This document shows, one piece after another, positions 25,272 through 31,831 of a DNA stretch of 64,000 bases (positions within the stretch are counted from its first letter, which is position 1; each line of letters begins with the position of its first letter). Both the position numbers and the translations under genes were made by a program. The notes beneath the pieces were generated by a model, which made no database searches, was not told the DNA's origin, and worked only from the letters and a program-made list of their open reading frames with translations. Origin of the DNA: Alphaproteobacteria bacterium. GTDB lineage: Bacteria; Pseudomonadota; Alphaproteobacteria; MPNO01; UBA2964. Location: contig WLWZ01000001.1 of assembly GCA_012103315.1 (NCBI GenBank), positions 124,001 through 188,000 of the forward strand. The letters run 5' to 3'.

Positions 25272-27200
25272 CTATTCGGGCACGCCCGCCTTGCGGAGGC
25301 CGTCGAGCAATCTCTCAAGATCTTCTTTGCGTTTGTAGTGAGAGCGATCACGAGCACGATTAATGGTGTAGGGTGTGAGTGCAATTGAACGCCGGTAGTT
25401 GTTGATTTTTTTTAGTAAGTTTCTGGCTTCTTGGGGCTGCCCCGCGTAAGCGTATGCGGCTATCAGATGCGCGGTACGTGTCCCGAATGCGATGTCGTTT
25501 CCGACCGATTTTTCCAACGTTTCTATCGCCTTTGTCCAGTTTGATGACGCAAACTGTGAGACGCCCAATGGAAAAAAGTAAGCAGATCGGTGTCGCGGAT
25601 TGAGGCGCATTGCGGTTTTAATTGATTCTACTGCTCCTTGCGGGTCACCTCCCCAATTTTGGGCCGTTGCAAGCCGGTAGTAATTATCAGCATTATTGGG
25701 GTCAAGGGAGATCGCGCGTTGCATCTTTCCCAACGCTTCGTCATAAAATCCATCGATATAGTTAAGTCTTGCTGCAACCCGATATGCGAGAGAGTTGGGC
25801 CGCCGCATCGCTTTTGAAAGGCTTATACGGGCTTGTTCTATCGATGACCAATTTTCAGAGAACCCCAAATACGTATGCCAGTTTCGAATAGTTGCTGTGA
25901 TGTAAATTGACGCTAAACTAGCGTGGGCTTCTGCGTAGTTGGGATCGAGCTTGAGTGCATGTTTAAGGAGTTTCACCGCCTCGAAAATGTTGTCTGGCGA
26001 TCGCTGGCGGGAGAGGTGAACAGCTCGCAAATATGCGTCATAGGCTTCGACGCTTTTGGTTCTGCTCGAGGCTGCCAGACGTTCAGTTGGTTGTAACTCG
26101 CTGGTGAGCAAGGCGACAATCTGGCGGGTAATTGCATCCTGGGTTTCAAACAGGGCCTCGACATCGCGGTCAAACCGTTCGGCCCAGCGCTGCGTACCTG
26201 TTTTAGTATCGATCAGATAAACGTTGAGCCGCATACGCTTGCCCTGACGCCGGACGGTACCATCGAGCACATATTTGACACCAAGTTCACTTCCGATGGA
26301 TCGGATATCCGGCTTGTCGCTGCGATAGGCGAAGCTCGAATGGCGTGAAATAACAAACAGGCCTGACATCTTGGATAGATCAGTAATCAGATCCTCGGAA
26401 ATACCATCACTGAAATAGCCATGCGCAGGATCAGGGTTTTGATTCTTGAAGGGAAGTACCGCAATTGACGGTTTGTCGGGCAGGGCAATGGCCGGTTTTT
26501 GGGCCTTCTGCGGTAATGTCCCGGACCACTGCAGCCCGCCAAAAAAACTGCCAGCAAACACCGTGGCGATGACAATCGATAACAAAAGCGGATGCCGCAA
26601 CAAATGCGGTCGCGGCAGATAGGTCCGCCACGGGCGTTTAATGCCTGTTTCGACCCGATAAACATGCAGTGGGTTGGCGAGGTTTTTGACTTGCTGTCGC
26701 CCTAAGTCCGTAAAATTAATCGGCAGCTTGCTGTGAACTTCTTGATAGACGATGTTGGAAACATAGATGCCGCCGGGCGGTGCAATCTGTTCCAGCCGTG
26801 CCGCGGCATTGACGCCTTCCCCGAAAATATCGTGTTCCTCAAAAATGACGTCGCCAAAATTAATCCCAATTCGGTAATCGATCGGTTGCTTGGTGTTCGT
26901 TTGGCTGTTGTGCTCGGCAAGCTGCTTTTGGAAGGTAAAGGCAAAAGTGACGGCATCAGTAACACTGTTAAAGGCGCAGACTGCGCCATCGCCGGTACTT
27001 TTTACGATCTCGCCATTATGGGATTGGATCCCCAGGACGAAGATATCGTTATAGACCGCCATGACCGCCGCATGGGTCGCGGCCTCATTGCGTTCCATCA
27101 TCGTGGTATAGCCCACAATATCAGCAACCACGACAGCGGCGAGCCTGCGTTCGCCGCCTCGATCGTGGTCCTGTCTCATATCGACGATATTGTCGGCCAT
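25272..27200 (-). CDS. Class III adenylate/guanylate cyclase with TolB-like and TPR domains
   Basis: The 642-residue protein begins with a class III cyclase catalytic domain (about residues 18-185). It keeps the first metal Asp in VVVADIVGYT, the substrate Lys and second Asp in EIVKSTGDG, and the transition-state Asn/Arg in GEGVNAAARLE. One transmembrane helix follows (about 208-228), then a TolB-like segment (SIAVLPF, YFSDGISEDLITDLSKM), and C-terminal TPR repeats (about 385-620). This architecture is common in Alphaproteobacteria. The cyclase would be cytosolic, with the C-terminal part on the other side of the membrane. It makes cAMP (or cGMP), and the neighbouring Crp-type regulator is a natural receptor. 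Confidence 0.92.
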   Translation of the reverse strand: MADNIVDMRQDHDRGGERRLAAVVVADIVGYTTMMERNEAATHAAVMAVYNDIFVLGIQSHNGEIVKSTGDGAVCAFNSVTDAVTFAFTFQKQLAEHNSQTNTKQPIDYRIGINFGDVIFEEHDIFGEGVNAAARLEQIAPPGGIYVSNIVYQEVHSKLPINFTDLGRQQVKNLANPLHVYRVETGIKRPWRTYLPRPHLLRHPLLLSIVIATVFAGSFFGGLQWSGTLPQKAQKPAIALPDKPSIAVLPFKNQNPDPAHGYFSDGISEDLITDLSKMSGLFVISRHSSFAYRSDKPDIRSIGSELGVKYVLDGTVRRQGKRMRLNVYLIDTKTGTQRWAERFDRDVEALFETQDAITRQIVALLTSELQPTERLAASSRTKSVEAYDAYLRAVHLSRQRSPDNIFEAVKLLKHALKLDPNYAEAHASLASIYITATIRNWHTYLGFSENWSSIEQARISLSKAMRRPNSLAYRVAARLNYIDGFYDEALGKMQRAISLDPNNADNYYRLATAQNWGGDPQGAVESIKTAMRLNPRHRSAYFFPLGVSQFASSNWTKAIETLEKSVGNDIAFGTRTAHLIAAYAYAGQPQEARNLLKKINNYRRSIALTPYTINRARDRSHYKRKEDLERLLDGLRKAGVPE

Positions 27201-27214
27201 CGGGCGGAATTCTG

Positions 27215-28015
27215 TTATCTGATCCTGGTACTATTGATCAGTGTAATCCATTCCTGCTCCAGCATCCCGAATTTTTTACCGTATGTGGTCTCGAATGGTT
27301 TGCCGTAAAACACGTCGAAAAACTTATTCTTGCCATGTTTTTCAATGAGGAATTTCACGAACGAAGCTTCCTGCAAATAGGCGAGCTGACGAACGCCAAC
27401 AAGACGTTGACGCCTGGTTCTAACCTCTTCAACTTCCATTAAAGGGAAGAGCTGATTGTATCGGCGATAAGTTGCTGCGGTTGTCTTGTGAATTTCTTTG
27501 CCCATTGTTGGATAGGCTCGATCATATTCCTTACCGAATTTTTCCTGTAAGAAAATTTCTAACCCTGTATCCAGAAACTTGGCCCATTTCTTGTTCGTAG
27601 AGATAGCGAGGACGTTGGTGACCAGCGCGGCCTCACCAGGACCGCGACCCCTCAAGCTGGGAGGGCCTGACGCATCACCACGCAGCCGGTTGGCGGGAAC
27701 GGCTATTGTTTTAGTTTTTATTTTGTAGTGTGGGAAAAAGTGGTCGTCTTTAATTGAAACGATAATTTTTCCAGAAACTTTATTGCCGAGATATGCGCTG
27801 ATATTGCGATAAGTCTGTTCGATATCGTCGCCAAACCGGTTTGCAAGATCGTCGCTAATATTAGCGTAGCTGATGTCAAAATTTGGCGTTGCAATCTTGT
27901 TCGCTGCTGTGACGTTGGGCGCAGATGAAATACCGACTAACAAGGCGGGAATCGCCAATAACCGAATCGGTGTCTTGCAATCCTTTGCATAACTTCGTTT
28001 GAAAAATCTCGACAT
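27215..28015 (-). CDS. Secreted gluzincin-fold-like protein lacking the HExxH zinc motif
   Basis: I do not recognise a named family. The 266-residue protein has a likely signal peptide (basic n-region, hydrophobic core LLAIPALLVGISSA, then A-rich cleavage region near residue 38) and a periplasmic domain. The spacing of EAALVTNVLAI and, about 15 residues later, FLDTGLEIFLQEKFG resembles the HExxH ... WLxEGLAxY layout of peptidase_MA-type gluzincins, but both the HExxH His residues and the downstream Glu are replaced, so it should be inactive as a protease. ATG 28015 is chosen for its signal peptide; ATG 28081 would add 22 residues. It is divergent from the RiPP-like operon and 14 bases upstream of the cyclase gene on the same strand. 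Confidence 0.6.
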   Translation of the reverse strand: MSRFFKRSYAKDCKTPIRLLAIPALLVGISSAPNVTAANKIATPNFDISYANISDDLANRFGDDIEQTYRNISAYLGNKVSGKIIVSIKDDHFFPHYKIKTKTIAVPANRLRGDASGPPSLRGRGPGEAALVTNVLAISTNKKWAKFLDTGLEIFLQEKFGKEYDRAYPTMGKEIHKTTAATYRRYNQLFPLMEVEEVRTRRQRLVGVRQLAYLQEASFVKFLIEKHGKNKFFDVFYGKPFETTYGKKFGMLEQEWITLINSTRIR

Positions 28016-28144
28016 TGTTCCAGTGTAACTTCTAACTCTTTGGATTCCGACCCTTATCTCGTAAAAATTTCTTTTCCACATGAATGAAAACTAAAACGCT
28101 CCGGCATCTTGACCCTAATAGGTTGTAGATGGAACTCTAAAATC

Positions 28145-28177
28145 GCCTAAAAATTAGGCAACCACAATATGTTGTGG
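28145..28177. promoter_or_regulatory. Two adjacent inverted repeats upstream of the precursor peptide gene
   Basis: GCCTAA-AAA-TTAGGC (28145-28159) and CCACAA-TATG-TTGTGG (28162-28177) are both perfect six-base inverted repeats, separated by two bases. They lie in the region between the divergent secreted-protein gene and the peptide gene, ending 14 bases before its AAGGAG. They could be regulator sites or leader-RNA hairpins. No T tract follows, so termination is unlikely. Confidence 0.4.
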
Positions 28178-28205
28178 GGAGATGTAACAAAAGGAGCATA
28201 TGTTG

Positions 28206-28346
28206 ATGCAAGATATAAAAGATAAAGTTGAATTGATTGCCGATTCCGATGCCGGAATCGTCGAATGGCAAATTCAAACAGTAGCCAGCGCCGCCGATGA
28301 AACCAATGGCGACTCCTGTGGTTGTAGCTGCGGTTGCGGCGAATAA
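28206..28346 (+). CDS. Putative RiPP precursor peptide, C-terminal Cys-Gly core
   Basis: A 46-residue peptide with an acidic, helical leader (residues 1-37) and a C-terminus CGCSCGCGE holding four Cys at 38, 40, 42 and 44; no other Cys is present. It has no signal peptide. AAGGAG at 28191-28196 is 9 bases from ATG 28206 but only 3 from the in-frame ATG 28200, so 28206 is preferred (46 rather than 48 residues). It is followed after 68 bases by a DUF692/MNIO oxidase, whose characterised relatives modify Cys in small peptides such as methanobactin, TglA and the bufferin/HvfA precursors. I infer it is the substrate, with the Cys-rich tail as core. An unmodified metallothionein-like metal binder is the alternative. 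Confidence 0.75.
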   Translation: MQDIKDKVELIADSDAGIVEWQIQTVASAADETNGDSCGCSCGCGE

Positions 28347-28367
28347 AGCGGTTTGTGATTTGAAGTA

Positions 28368-28387
28368 GTTGGAAGATTTGATCCAAC
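28368..28387 (+). promoter_or_regulatory. Hairpin between precursor and MNIO genes
   Basis: GTTGGA-N8-TCCAAC is a perfect six-base inverted repeat in the 68-base gap between the precursor stop and the MNIO start. No T tract follows. It might stabilise the precursor mRNA or lower read-through into the enzyme genes, as seen in many RiPP operons. Confidence 0.3.
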
Positions 28388-28414
28388 GTCGCGGTTAACG
28401 AGGGCCATTCAGCG

Positions 28415-29281
28415 ATGAGGAATTTTGAACAGTCAGCTCAGGTAGGCATTGGATATCGCAATGAGATCCATGACTGGACCCTCGCAAATCTTGCGTCATT
28501 CGATCTTCTGGAAATCACAATCGACCACTATCTGGTCGGGGGGACGGCACGACGGGAAGCCATTGCGTCGCTCGTTGGGCAAATACCGCTCATCGCGCAT
28601 GGCATTGGCCTCTCCGTCGGCACCGCCGTTCTCCCCGATCAGACTTATTTGGATAACATTGCTCGGGCGCTCGATGAGTTGGAGATCGAGTGGTATAGCG
28701 AACATCTCGCGCTAACCAAAGTGCCGGGGATTGATCTTGCTAATTTATTGCCGCTGCCACGCACTGAAGAGGTCGTTGAGCAGGTTATCAAGAACGTCAA
28801 TTTTGTGCGCTCGCGCATTCCGGCGGCACGGTTTGGGTTGGAGAATATTTCCTACATGTTCGACTATCCGGAATCGACCATGGGCGAGGCCGAGTTTTTA
28901 AATCTAATCTGCCGCGAGACGGGCTCCTACATCATGCTCGATGTTGAAAACGTGGTCGTGAATGCACGGAACTATCATTACGACCCCCGCTCCTTTGTGG
29001 ACTCCTTGCCCGCCGATCAGGTGCTGGAAATCCATATGGCGGGCGGTTTCTTTTTTGAACAAACCCGGATCGACAGCCACAGCCAGCCAGTGCCGCAAGA
29101 GACGCTCGACTTGCTCGATTATGTGCTGCAGGTCTGTGAGCCACGTTCGATTGTTCTCGAACGTGATGACCGGCTGGGCGCGGTGGATGAAATCGCTGCT
29201 GACGTGAGCGCGATCCGTGATGTCGTGGGTAAAGAAGCTGTGGGCAAAGGATATGAGAATGCAAAACCAGCCGTTGCTTGA
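28415..29281 (+). CDS. DUF692-family multinuclear non-haem iron oxidase (MNIO), RiPP-modifying
   Basis: The 288-residue TIM-barrel protein has the DUF692/MbnB-type layout. Likely metal ligands are H62 (AHGIGLSVG), H97 (SEHLA), E143 (LENIS), D176 and N179/N183 (LDVENVVVN), H207 (EIHMAGG), D220 and H222 (RIDSHSQPV) and E249 (VLERDD). Characterised MNIOs use a di- or tri-iron centre and oxygen to convert Cys of precursor peptides to oxazolone/thioamide or other rearranged products, or to excise carbon. It lies directly downstream of the Cys-rich peptide and overlaps the DUF2063/HvfC-like partner gene, the usual MNIO pair. The specific chemistry cannot be predicted. Confidence 0.9.
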   Translation: MRNFEQSAQVGIGYRNEIHDWTLANLASFDLLEITIDHYLVGGTARREAIASLVGQIPLIAHGIGLSVGTAVLPDQTYLDNIARALDELEIEWYSEHLALTKVPGIDLANLLPLPRTEEVVEQVIKNVNFVRSRIPAARFGLENISYMFDYPESTMGEAEFLNLICRETGSYIMLDVENVVVNARNYHYDPRSFVDSLPADQVLEIHMAGGFFFEQTRIDSHSQPVPQETLDLLDYVLQVCEPRSIVLERDDRLGAVDEIAADVSAIRDVVGKEAVGKGYENAKPAVA

Positions 29282-29975
29282 TCGCCAAATCGCACTGCTG
29301 TCCTATCTGACCGATCCTAGGCAATATGATCAAAAGCCCGAAGCCGAAGGAATCTTTGGCATCGACCCCTATCGACTGAGGCTTGAGGGGCGGTTCTCGC
29401 TGGAGAAACGTACCGGGAAACTTATGGGGGTGTTTCGTCGCAGCTTTGAGGCGATGCGTAATACGCCGGGCGCTGATCTGAAAAGTTTCGCGGCGGCTCA
29501 CCCGCCACACAGCATTACGCGCTATGACAATGCCGCGCAGTTTTTCGAATTTGTCAGTGATCTCTGGCAAAAGACGCCACCAGAAATTCCGCATTTGCCT
29601 GACCTTGCGGCGTTGGAACTGGCACTTTCCAAAGTGATGTTATCCGACCTGACCGCGGAGGATGCGCCGCAATTGGATACCGCGCCGGGCACGCATTTCC
29701 GTCTGTTGCCAGGAACTGAATTCCTCATCTGCGAGCATGATATCCGGCCATTGCTCGCCGGGCCGCAGGTTGAGATGGCGCCGGAGAAGCGCCCGGTCTA
29801 CTTGCTCCTTGCGCCGTCGCTGGAAGGCGCCATGCCGCGCGTTTTGGAGCTTAAACAGGCGGCGTTCGAGTATCTGAAAAGTTTACAGGGTTGGACATCC
29901 GTGGCGGATGCCGAGCCAGTAGCGGCACTGGTGAGCGCCCTGATCAAGAATTACGTTATGGAGACGAACCAATGA
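29259..29975 (+). CDS. MNIO partner protein, DUF2063/HvfC/BufC-like
   Basis: The 238-residue protein follows the MNIO gene with a 23-base overlap. ATG 29259 has AGGA at 7-base spacing; three ATGs further upstream lie deeper in the MNIO gene and lack one. The region FRRSFEAMRNTPG ... HPPHSITRYDNAAQFFEFV (cited by its ends, about residues 60-100) resembles the N-terminal helical part of DUF2063-like partner proteins, in which a leader-binding element recruits the precursor to the oxidase. The C-terminal half holds beta-strands and a final helix. By family precedent it forms a heterodimer with the MNIO; sequence similarity is moderate by eye, so the assignment rests partly on context. Confidence 0.7.
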   Translation: MQNQPLLDRQIALLSYLTDPRQYDQKPEAEGIFGIDPYRLRLEGRFSLEKRTGKLMGVFRRSFEAMRNTPGADLKSFAAAHPPHSITRYDNAAQFFEFVSDLWQKTPPEIPHLPDLAALELALSKVMLSDLTAEDAPQLDTAPGTHFRLLPGTEFLICEHDIRPLLAGPQVEMAPEKRPVYLLLAPSLEGAMPRVLELKQAAFEYLKSLQGWTSVADAEPVAALVSALIKNYVMETNQ

Positions 29976-31831
29976 AAATCTGCCTTGTCGGGAAATACCC
30001 ACCGATCCAGGGGGGTGTGTCAGCCCGCACCTATTCATATGCTCATGCACTGGCTCGTAAAGGCCATCAGGTTCATGTCGTTACAAATGCCAAGGAAGTG
30101 CAGCCGCCTTATCGCATGCTCATGCGTGACGAAGATTGGGCGCGCTGCGATGCCGATTACGGCGAAGGCTATGTCCGGGTCCACTGGACCGAGGCCAAGA
30201 AAGCGCATTGGCATATTCCGATGGGTGATGCATTTGTGACCAAGTTGGCATCAGTCGGCGCCGAGGTCTGTGAAGAGTTCGATATTGAGGTGGTGTTTTC
30301 CTATTACTGGCAGCCTTACGCGGTTGCCGGCCATATGATTGCCGAGATGGCCAGCTTACCCCATGTTATTCGCAATGCCGGCAGTGATGCGGGTCGATTG
30401 TGGCTGCAGGAACAGTTCTCAACGCTCTTTACGCATATCCTCAAGAAGGCGGATTATTTGCTCGCCGGTGGCAAGGTCGCACGTAAGCTTGAGAAGCTTG
30501 GCATTGATCCGATTAGGCTACGACCTGATCCGGAATTTACAATTTCAGAGGATTTGTTTTCGCCGAACGGTCCAGCGCTGGATGTAGAAGCCGTCTGCGA
30601 GGCAGCTGAAGCCGATCCGGAATATCGCTCGCTACAATGGGGGACCTACCGTCCTGATTTCCGCTATATCGGCATCTATGGGAAGCTTGGTGAGAAGAAG
30701 GGTACGCCAGCTCTCCTCGAAGCGCTGGCACGATTGGTGAAGATCAACCCCAAGCTGGGACTACTGGTGCTCGGGCAGGGGCACCCCAAGGCCGATGTAA
30801 GCTTTGCCGAGGCTGCAACAGCGCTGGGTCTGGAAGATCACATCGTCCAACTACCGTTCCTGCCGAACTGGCGGGTGCCCGAATTTATCCGGCGCTGTGA
30901 GGCGGTCTGTGCGTTGGAGCAGGATTTCCCGATTGTCTTCCATGCGCCCGTTGTTGCACGAGAGGTCTTGTGTTGTGGCGGTATGTTGGTTGGCTCAACC
31001 GAAATGCTTGGTAAATTGCCGAACCCGGAACGCCTAGCACACGGCTATAACTGTTTTGGGGTGAATGACGTCAATGATATTGATGAATTGTCGCGGGCCA
31101 TCGAAACAGCGTTGTCCGCCGCGCAGACCCGTCCTGAAATCGGGCTCCGCGGACGCGAAGCGGTCATCGAGTCACAAAAGACCATGCGCTATCCAGAACG
31201 CACTGAGCAGACCCTGGCGCTCGCCATCTCGAAAGATCGTTCCGGAGGAAGACGGCATCAAAATGCAACGCCGTCTTTGAAAGATTTGGCTGCCAATGCA
31301 GGCAATATTGGGTCGGCGCTCCGGCAAGATGTTGTTCGTCTGGATCTATGTCTTGAGAAGGCACGTGCCGAAGCTGCCGGAACGACGGATACCGGAGAGG
31401 CAACCGAAGCACTTTTTCGGATGGCGGATGATGCGTGGATGGATTTTCCAAACAACATGGATGATCTAGTTCCTGTGCCACTTTCCCGCTATGCCGTTGA
31501 ACGGTTTGAGCATGATATTAATCAGCTATTGCCGTGTGTCTCGGGGGCACCAATTCCGGCCAATGTAACCCGAAAACAAACGTGGGCGATCTTTGTTCCC
31601 GATCTGGCAGGCACCGGTGTTCGCACCATTGTGATCGACGCGGCGACAGCAGCGCTGTTGGACGTAATTGATGGGCAAATCTCTGTGCGGTCAGTCACAC
31701 AAATAATACGTGCAGGTCACAGTAATAAAATGGTGTCAGAGACCCGTATTAAACAATCAATTGAGCAGTTCTTCAGAGCCGGAGTTATTGGTCTTGAATC
31801 ACCTAAAAACGTATATGCATCAGCGATTTAG
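29972..31831 (+). CDS. GT4-type glycosyltransferase with C-terminal PqqD-like domain
   Basis: The 619-residue protein begins as a GT-B glycosyltransferase: MKICLVGKYPPIQGGVSAR is the nucleotide-sugar enzyme opening, followed by EISEDLFSP-like and GIYGKLGEKKGTPALLEAL segments of the C-terminal Rossmann domain (to about residue 420). A linker (about 425-545) leads to a C-terminal stretch (about 547-611, VIDAATAALLDVIDGQISV ... FFRAGVIGLE) that looks like a PqqD-type winged helix, the fold used as a RiPP recognition element. ATG 29972 overlaps the partner stop in ATGA and replaces an in-frame ATG 27 codons upstream. I infer that it glycosylates the peptide or a precursor of it; it could instead act on a cell-surface glycan. 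Confidence 0.75.
   Translation: MKICLVGKYPPIQGGVSARTYSYAHALARKGHQVHVVTNAKEVQPPYRMLMRDEDWARCDADYGEGYVRVHWTEAKKAHWHIPMGDAFVTKLASVGAEVCEEFDIEVVFSYYWQPYAVAGHMIAEMASLPHVIRNAGSDAGRLWLQEQFSTLFTHILKKADYLLAGGKVARKLEKLGIDPIRLRPDPEFTISEDLFSPNGPALDVEAVCEAAEADPEYRSLQWGTYRPDFRYIGIYGKLGEKKGTPALLEALARLVKINPKLGLLVLGQGHPKADVSFAEAATALGLEDHIVQLPFLPNWRVPEFIRRCEAVCALEQDFPIVFHAPVVAREVLCCGGMLVGSTEMLGKLPNPERLAHGYNCFGVNDVNDIDELSRAIETALSAAQTRPEIGLRGREAVIESQKTMRYPERTEQTLALAISKDRSGGRRHQNATPSLKDLAANAGNIGSALRQDVVRLDLCLEKARAEAAGTTDTGEATEALFRMADDAWMDFPNNMDDLVPVPLSRYAVERFEHDINQLLPCVSGAPIPANVTRKQTWAIFVPDLAGTGVRTIVIDAATAALLDVIDGQISVRSVTQIIRAGHSNKMVSETRIKQSIEQFFRAGVIGLESPKNVYASAI

Follow-up and report, generated by a model that had tools for sequence, protein, structure and literature searches.

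Pathways built around multinuclear nonheme iron-dependent oxidative enzymes (MNIOs) are yielding a rapidly growing range of unusual peptide chemistry, most of it on cysteine. Among the characterized families, those nearest by score to the MNIO considered here belong to the MNIO-PME1 ribosomally synthesized and post-translationally modified peptides (RiPPs), namely the bufferins (BufABC), oxazolin (HvfABC), and the captophorins and fontiphorin (FonABC), which have the gene order peptide-MNIO-partner and Cys-Gly in the core. In this study, we describe a cluster that has the same order and adds a glycosyltransferase (GT), located at positions 28,206 to 31,831 of a 64,000-nucleotide stretch of alphaproteobacterial DNA (contig WLWZ01000001.1, positions 124,001 to 188,000; hereafter, the window). 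We consider it likely, with a probability of roughly 70%, that the cluster encodes a leader-guided RiPP pathway in which a Cys-(Gly/Ser) core would be oxidized by the MNIO and glycosylated by a GT that shares its leader-binding module. The BufABC, HvfABC, and FonABC systems have DUF2063 partners, EGKCG, Lys-Cys or related motifs, and no glycosyltransferase reported in the core cluster. Bufferin and oxazolin products contain Cys-derived thiooxazoles or oxazolones. Moreover, bufferin and oxazolin precursors carry Sec signal peptides, whereas none is evident in the 46-residue window precursor, in which inspection of the sequence revealed no hydrophobic stretch. The pearlins (TglHI), aminopyruvatide (ApyHI), and the biphenomycin-like products (PbsCD) resemble the window system in having a precursor without signal peptide and a partner of the TglI/ApyI fold with a RiPP recognition element (RRE). 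However, they belong to other MNIO subfamilies (the window MNIO scores 115 against the ApyH cut-off of 400) and have another core; the window peptide reads CGCGE at its C-terminus, which is not the C-terminal Asp core of aminopyruvatide. We know of no RRE-bearing glycosyltransferase in the TglHI, ApyHI, or PbsCD clusters.

The four open reading frames, encoding the precursor peptide, the MNIO, the partner, and a GT4-type glycosyltransferase, lie head to tail on the forward strand. The partner gene overlaps the MNIO gene by 23 bases and the GT gene overlaps the partner gene by 4 bases (ATGA), and the layout given in the initial annotation was confirmed in its coordinates. The precursor (MQDIKDKVELIADSDAGIVEWQIQTVASAADETNGDSCGCSCGCGE; 28206..28346, + strand) runs from the ATG at 28206 to the stop at 28346, and the ribosome-binding site AAAGGAG (28190..28196, + strand), 9 nt before this ATG, is kept in a genome of the same genus (G010). 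An in-frame ATG at 28200 was rejected as the peptide start because G010 has a TAG codon between the equivalents of both candidate starts. The peptide contains a putative leader recognition strand, IVEWQIQ (28257..28277, + strand), which is a motif common to related peptides, and the core CGCSCGCG (28317..28340, + strand), in which four cysteines alternate with Gly or Ser. In a strict Cys-tail test, defined as at least four Cys and at least three CxC or CxxC steps within the last 24 residues, the peptide was one of two matches in the 64 kb of the window, and two matches were obtained in a 134-kb background of other loci, mostly around unrelated MNIOs. These counts, together with conservation of the peptide in two genera, rule out a chance small open reading frame and bear out the small Cys-tailed peptide that had been called earlier. 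Directly upstream of the peptide gene there are two inverted repeats, at 28145-28159 (GCCTAAaaaTTAGGC) and 28162-28177 (CCACAAtatgTTGTGG) of the window; their symmetry is preserved in G010, and they are possible operator sites. A promoter and terminator scan gave scores not above those of shuffles.

The initial annotation had named homologous neighborhoods without the peptide, or a peptide not conserved between related genomes, as what would speak against it; instead, the peptide was found in every sufficiently complete relative. The G010 peptide (MLNIKENAETVTETDTGIVEWQIQSIASAADETNADSCSCGCGCG) lies at the equivalent place and is 64% identical to that of the window (E 4e-17), and the two genes differ at 13, 7, and 22 first, second, and third codon positions, respectively, that is, mostly at third positions. 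In a genome from another genus of the same family (G003), the peptide ...QMVEWDIRPSAASANPDAEMDNGCGCGCGCGD, which contains VEWDI and ends in GCGCGCGCGD, lies at a contig edge (C280; E 0.0016). The cores read CSCGCGCG in G010 and CGCGCGCG in G003, and no residue other than Cys (and Gly) is shared by all the Cys tails found. The leader motif h-V/I-E-[FW]-x-I is common to the peptides of G010, G003, and two genomes of unrelated lineages, G766 and G1005; in the latter two it takes the form V/I-E-F-x-I-x-D-L, comparable to the V-E-W-Q-I of the window. The strand would bind an RRE.

The MNIO (28415..29281, + strand) matches DUF692/PF05114 at 241.3 bits against a cut-off of 25 and has all nine iron ligands intact (H62, H97, E143, D176, N179, H207, D220, H222, and E249), in agreement with the DUF692/MNIO oxidase first proposed. 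The ligands were assigned by conserved columns and spacing from those of TglH and MbnB, which are His, His, Glu, Asp, Asn, His, Asp, His, and Glu (PMC10880893, PMC8888699), and all nine are invariant in 5 of 5 full-length GT-linked MNIOs. BufB (NF050167) and HvfB (NF003818) are the best-scoring characterized families, with 201 and 184 bits. Assignment of the enzyme as an equivalog of BufB, HvfB, or ApyH was ruled out by the scores against the respective cut-offs (201/310, 184/360, and 115/400 bits). In a maximum-likelihood tree, six GT-linked MNIOs form one clade (support 100/97) apart from 33 others and, by these sequences, share common descent. Residues outside the ligand set that are invariant in 31 other MNIOs are replaced across this clade, e.g., N38 to H/Q and H211 to G, and a GT of the subfamily described below is found within 1.5 kb at 0 of 30 other MNIO loci. 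Separately, a second, partial PF05114-like protein with a score of 84 bits and a very long branch is present in G000 and G010 (G000:C20:53229-53795, L002; G010:C1:571123-571689, L025); it is probably not a typical MNIO. In G003, a gene for a weakly NMT1-like periplasmic binding protein (L010:111-1226) stands directly before the MNIO gene with a 3-base gap.

The partner (29259..29975, + strand) had been described as a DUF2063, HvfC, or BufC-like protein, and this description survives for its fold and not for its sequence family. There is no Pfam match up to E 1, including DUF2063 (PF09836), and no NCBIfam match; therefore, the assignment as a Pfam DUF2063 protein was rejected and the partner is DUF2063-like by fold only. 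Foldseek matched its AlphaFold2 model (predicted local distance difference test, pLDDT, 79) to TglI (8hi7, E 9e-7) and NGO1945 (3dee, E 8e-6), which are the two reference structures of MNIO partners, and weakly to MbnC (E 0.08), whereas a sequence search of the partner family against the PDB gave no match. The predicted architecture, a helical N-domain plus an RRE, is PME-type 2-like, and the modeled partner fits the PME-type 2 description of PMC12452194, in which the precursor lacks a signal peptide and the DUF2063 signature is absent.

The GT (29972..31831, + strand) appears to be a two-part protein. Residues 1 to ~415 form a GT-B enzyme of the GT4 type, with N- and C-domains; PF00534 (43.9 bits) and PF13579 (39.5 bits) are above cut-off, all Pfam matches are GT4-type, and the GT2-type PF00535 is absent. 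The enzyme belongs to a distinct subfamily whose scores are far above generic GT4 and which bears the signature GKxPPIxGGVS ... AGSD ... YGKxGxxKG ... WRVPxFIRxCxAVxxLExxFPxxxHxPxxxREVxxCG. Residues ~415-619 (about 200 residues; 31214..31828, + strand) show homology to the whole of the partner protein; against the partner family, hhalign gives 96.8% and E 2.2e-10 across 173 columns. The profile of this C-terminal family reaches PqqD chains (E 0.0015), the window GT (P0004) has a weak ApyI match (E 5e-5), and the GT of G1005 likewise matches NGO1945_C. The model of the C-terminal module compares with TglI at Z 10.1 over 151 residues, with NGO1945 at Z 8.3, with the lasso RRE TbiB1 at Z 7.7, and with PqqD at Z 6.9. 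The PqqD-like leader-binding domain proposed in the initial annotation was thus found in the C-terminus, as a winged-helix fold, by fold and by profile, and the GT4 assignment stood in Pfam, but the module is a copy of the whole partner rather than a PqqD domain alone. Because the C-terminus is homologous to the partner family and has a TglI-like predicted fold, the plain reading is that the GT has captured its own copy of the MNIO partner and leader-binding module.

RRE-glycosyltransferase fusions have already been noticed. They are mentioned by RRE-Finder (PMC7470986) and, as GT2-type PF00535 fusions, in PMC12710340, whereas the window enzyme is a GT4 with a whole MNIO-partner-like module and lies beside an MNIO and a Cys-tail peptide. 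The main text of a 2025 survey of MNIO gene clusters (PMC12452194) does not mention glycosylation, and a literature search on MNIO, methanobactin, and bufferin combined with 'glycosylated' found no such product. The initial annotation called the addition of a leader-binding GT to an MNIO operon unusual and uncharacterized; we found no report of such a fusion with an MNIO in the main texts consulted.

Co-occurrence across genera, which had been expected if the four genes act together, extends well beyond the order: two unrelated lineages, represented by a gammaproteobacterial metagenome-assembled genome (MAG; G766) and an actinobacterial-side genome (G1005), have the peptide-MNIO-partner-GT set as well. 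A third genome, also actinobacterial-side (G767), has the GT-RRE too; it is near Cys-tail peptides in each of the three and adjoins MNIO and partner in the first two. The G766 and G1005 cluster is larger and comprises two Cys-tail peptides (AxCNGCNTCSA and SCGGCxGCxGCSM), an asparagine synthetase, the partner, the MNIO, the GT4-RRE, and another GT, followed by an asparagine synthetase and a methyltransferase that are encoded separately in G766 and fused in G1005. Carbamoyltransferase-like and second glycosyltransferase genes border these clusters (L030:693-2408, L030:2383-4020, and L013:8505-10205), which suggests a decorated glycan in the G766 and G1005 version. In G767, the GT-RRE adjoins a Cys-tail peptide, but there is no MNIO match anywhere in the genome. 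A plasmid search for GT relatives yielded two distant Rhizobiaceae matches (Agrobacterium and Rhizobium); these GTs are ~30% identical, lack the C-terminal module, and stand behind ~200-residue proteins ending in CKGCSACSSCGGGGSCTVH and the like, and no MNIO is present on the plasmids. Since these three relatives are without an MNIO, the association of the Cys/Gly tail with the GT is even closer than that with the MNIO.

In the pathway that we propose, the peptide would be divided into a leader, which holds the I-V-E-W-Q-I strand, and a Cys-(Gly/Ser) core at its C-terminus. The RRE of the partner would bind the leader and present the core to the MNIO, which would oxidize core cysteines via a two- or three-iron site, and the GT4 would bind the same leader through its own partner/RRE copy and transfer a sugar from a housekeeping nucleotide-sugar onto the core. 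We infer that both enzymes act on the 46-residue peptide, with an acceptor within the Cys core, and that the steps follow this order. If the GT modifies the peptide, a duplicated recognition module would link two chemistries, and further clusters of this kind could be sought by a clear rule. By analogy, metal buffering or a metallophore would be the likeliest role of the product; a metal-related role is plausible because the products of the nearest MNIO families are thiooxazoles that bind copper and carry a reactive thiol (PMC12668002).

Several points weigh against this proposal. The model of the GT C-terminal module is of modest confidence (pLDDT 64). PF05402 (PqqD) has no match in the window GT, whose RRE is below Pfam cut-offs. 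Genes for a protease, an exporter, or sugar biosynthesis are absent from the operon. The G003 peptide lies on contig C280 and the G003 enzymes on contig C81; these contigs probably adjoin, since C280 also holds the divergent adenylate cyclase gene that neighbors the window cluster. In another relative, G387, the N-terminus of the MNIO and the peptide are missing at an apparent contig junction. The GT subfamily is also rare: it occurs in 4 of 27 genomes within the order of the window, 2 of 385 of the class, and 1 of 398 of the phylum, the last being the window itself and so no new locus. Elsewhere, it occurs in 2 of 247 genomes in the class of G767 and in 1 of 109 in the order of G766, the latter scan again giving no new locus. 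As a consequence, the evidence for co-occurrence comes from roughly nine loci, most of them in MAGs.

A more specific version of the proposed pathway, to which we give somewhat under even odds, is that the GT is an S-glycosyltransferase that places the sugar on a Cys sulfur of the core, or on the exocyclic thiol of an MNIO-made thiooxazole, and that what the GT subfamily shares as substrate, with or without an MNIO, is the Cys tail itself. Among the possible linkages, S-glycosylation is the most attractive, given that Cys is the sole nucleophilic residue common to all the tails; Ser, Thr, and Lys are all absent from the G003 core, CGCGCGCGD. The GT also adjoins Cys/Gly tails on differing carriers, small peptides in the window, G010, G766, G1005, and G767 and the ~200-residue proteins in Rhizobiaceae, and the 5-thiooxazoles from related MNIOs bear an alkylatable thiol (PMC12668002). 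However, the Rhizobiaceae GTs are distant and lack the module, and the tails there might be coincidental metal-binding tails. Moreover, the known RiPP S-glycosyltransferases, those of the glycocins, are of the GT2 kind, and we found no GT4 example. Glycocin biosynthesis uses SunS-type (GT2) enzymes and a maturation protease/transporter, and the glycocin cores are disulfide-bonded; glycocins carry the sugar on Cys of a ribosomal peptide, a likeness that applies here only if the S-linkage is right, and no GT2 enzyme, maturation protease/transporter, or disulfide-bonded core of this type was seen at the window cluster. A broader version, which we regard as tentative and on balance doubtful, holds that the whole GT4 subfamily would be S-glycosyltransferases dedicated to Cys/Gly tails, that in the RiPP form, with its captured partner copy, MNIO oxidation and S-glycosylation would build a glycosylated sulfur-rich core, and that the Rhizobiaceae form without the module would act on the tails of folded proteins. 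If the acceptor were Cys sulfur, S-glycosyltransferases would gain a second structural class, a useful addition given the resistance of S-glycosides to hydrolysis; if the dedicated S-glycosyltransferase reading were true, the cluster would represent the first case of a glycosyltransferase in an MNIO pathway and would provide a GT-B route to S-glycopeptides.

A rather unlikely alternative is that the product is a bufferin- or captophorin-like copper-binding peptide that buffers copper via thiooxazoles, the GT being a side decoration or inactive. The MNIO does score best with BufB and HvfB, families that make copper-binding thiooxazoles (PMC12668002, PMC12452194), but far below their cut-offs, and the window system has no signal peptide, DUF2063 signature, EGKCG motif, or Lys-Cys motif. 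Moreover, the otherwise invariant residues corresponding to N38 and H211 are replaced across the clade, and the GT is retained beside the MNIO across phyla. We give still less weight to O- or N-glycosylation, in which the GT would modify Ser, Thr, or Asn in the linker before the core (the ETNGDS region) or elsewhere and the cysteines would be for the MNIO only. Most GT4 enzymes form O-glycosides, and Ser and Asn directly precede the first Cys in the window and G010; however, the position is not conserved, G003 having DAEMDNG before its core and the G766 and G1005 peptides varying. That a GT from envelope polysaccharide synthesis lies here by chance, its C-terminal module a decayed relic, is highly improbable: GT4 enzymes are common and the Pfam matches generic, but the gene overlaps, the MNIO clade tied to the GT, and the distinct subfamily argue otherwise, and the idea is largely refuted by the repeated occurrence of the GT with MNIO, partner, and Cys peptides across phyla, in lineages unrelated to one another.

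Two conserved genes lie divergently beside the cluster. The nearer encodes an exported Peptidase_MA-like protein without HExxH (27215..28081, - strand), also present in G010 (59%) and G387 (35%), and the farther encodes a class III adenylate cyclase with TPR repeats (25272..27200, - strand), which is found close to the cluster in each of the four genomes of the order that have the cluster. Finally, a domain with the pattern WHxF..T..Y..FC....GxxxHHxP occurs in 150-230-residue proteins ending in Cys/Gly tails (L016:7677-8931, L017:8108-8710, L067:391-1074, L068:5926-6381, and L014:9458-10156), and it had no Pfam match where scanned (L016, L017, and L014). These proteins may represent a separate Cys-tail modification system. 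The L014 protein has an apparent RRE in place of the tail, and one member is carried on small mobilizable E. coli plasmids, where it ends in CGCSGKGCGAGCSCNSR and is followed by ABC transporter and cupin genes.

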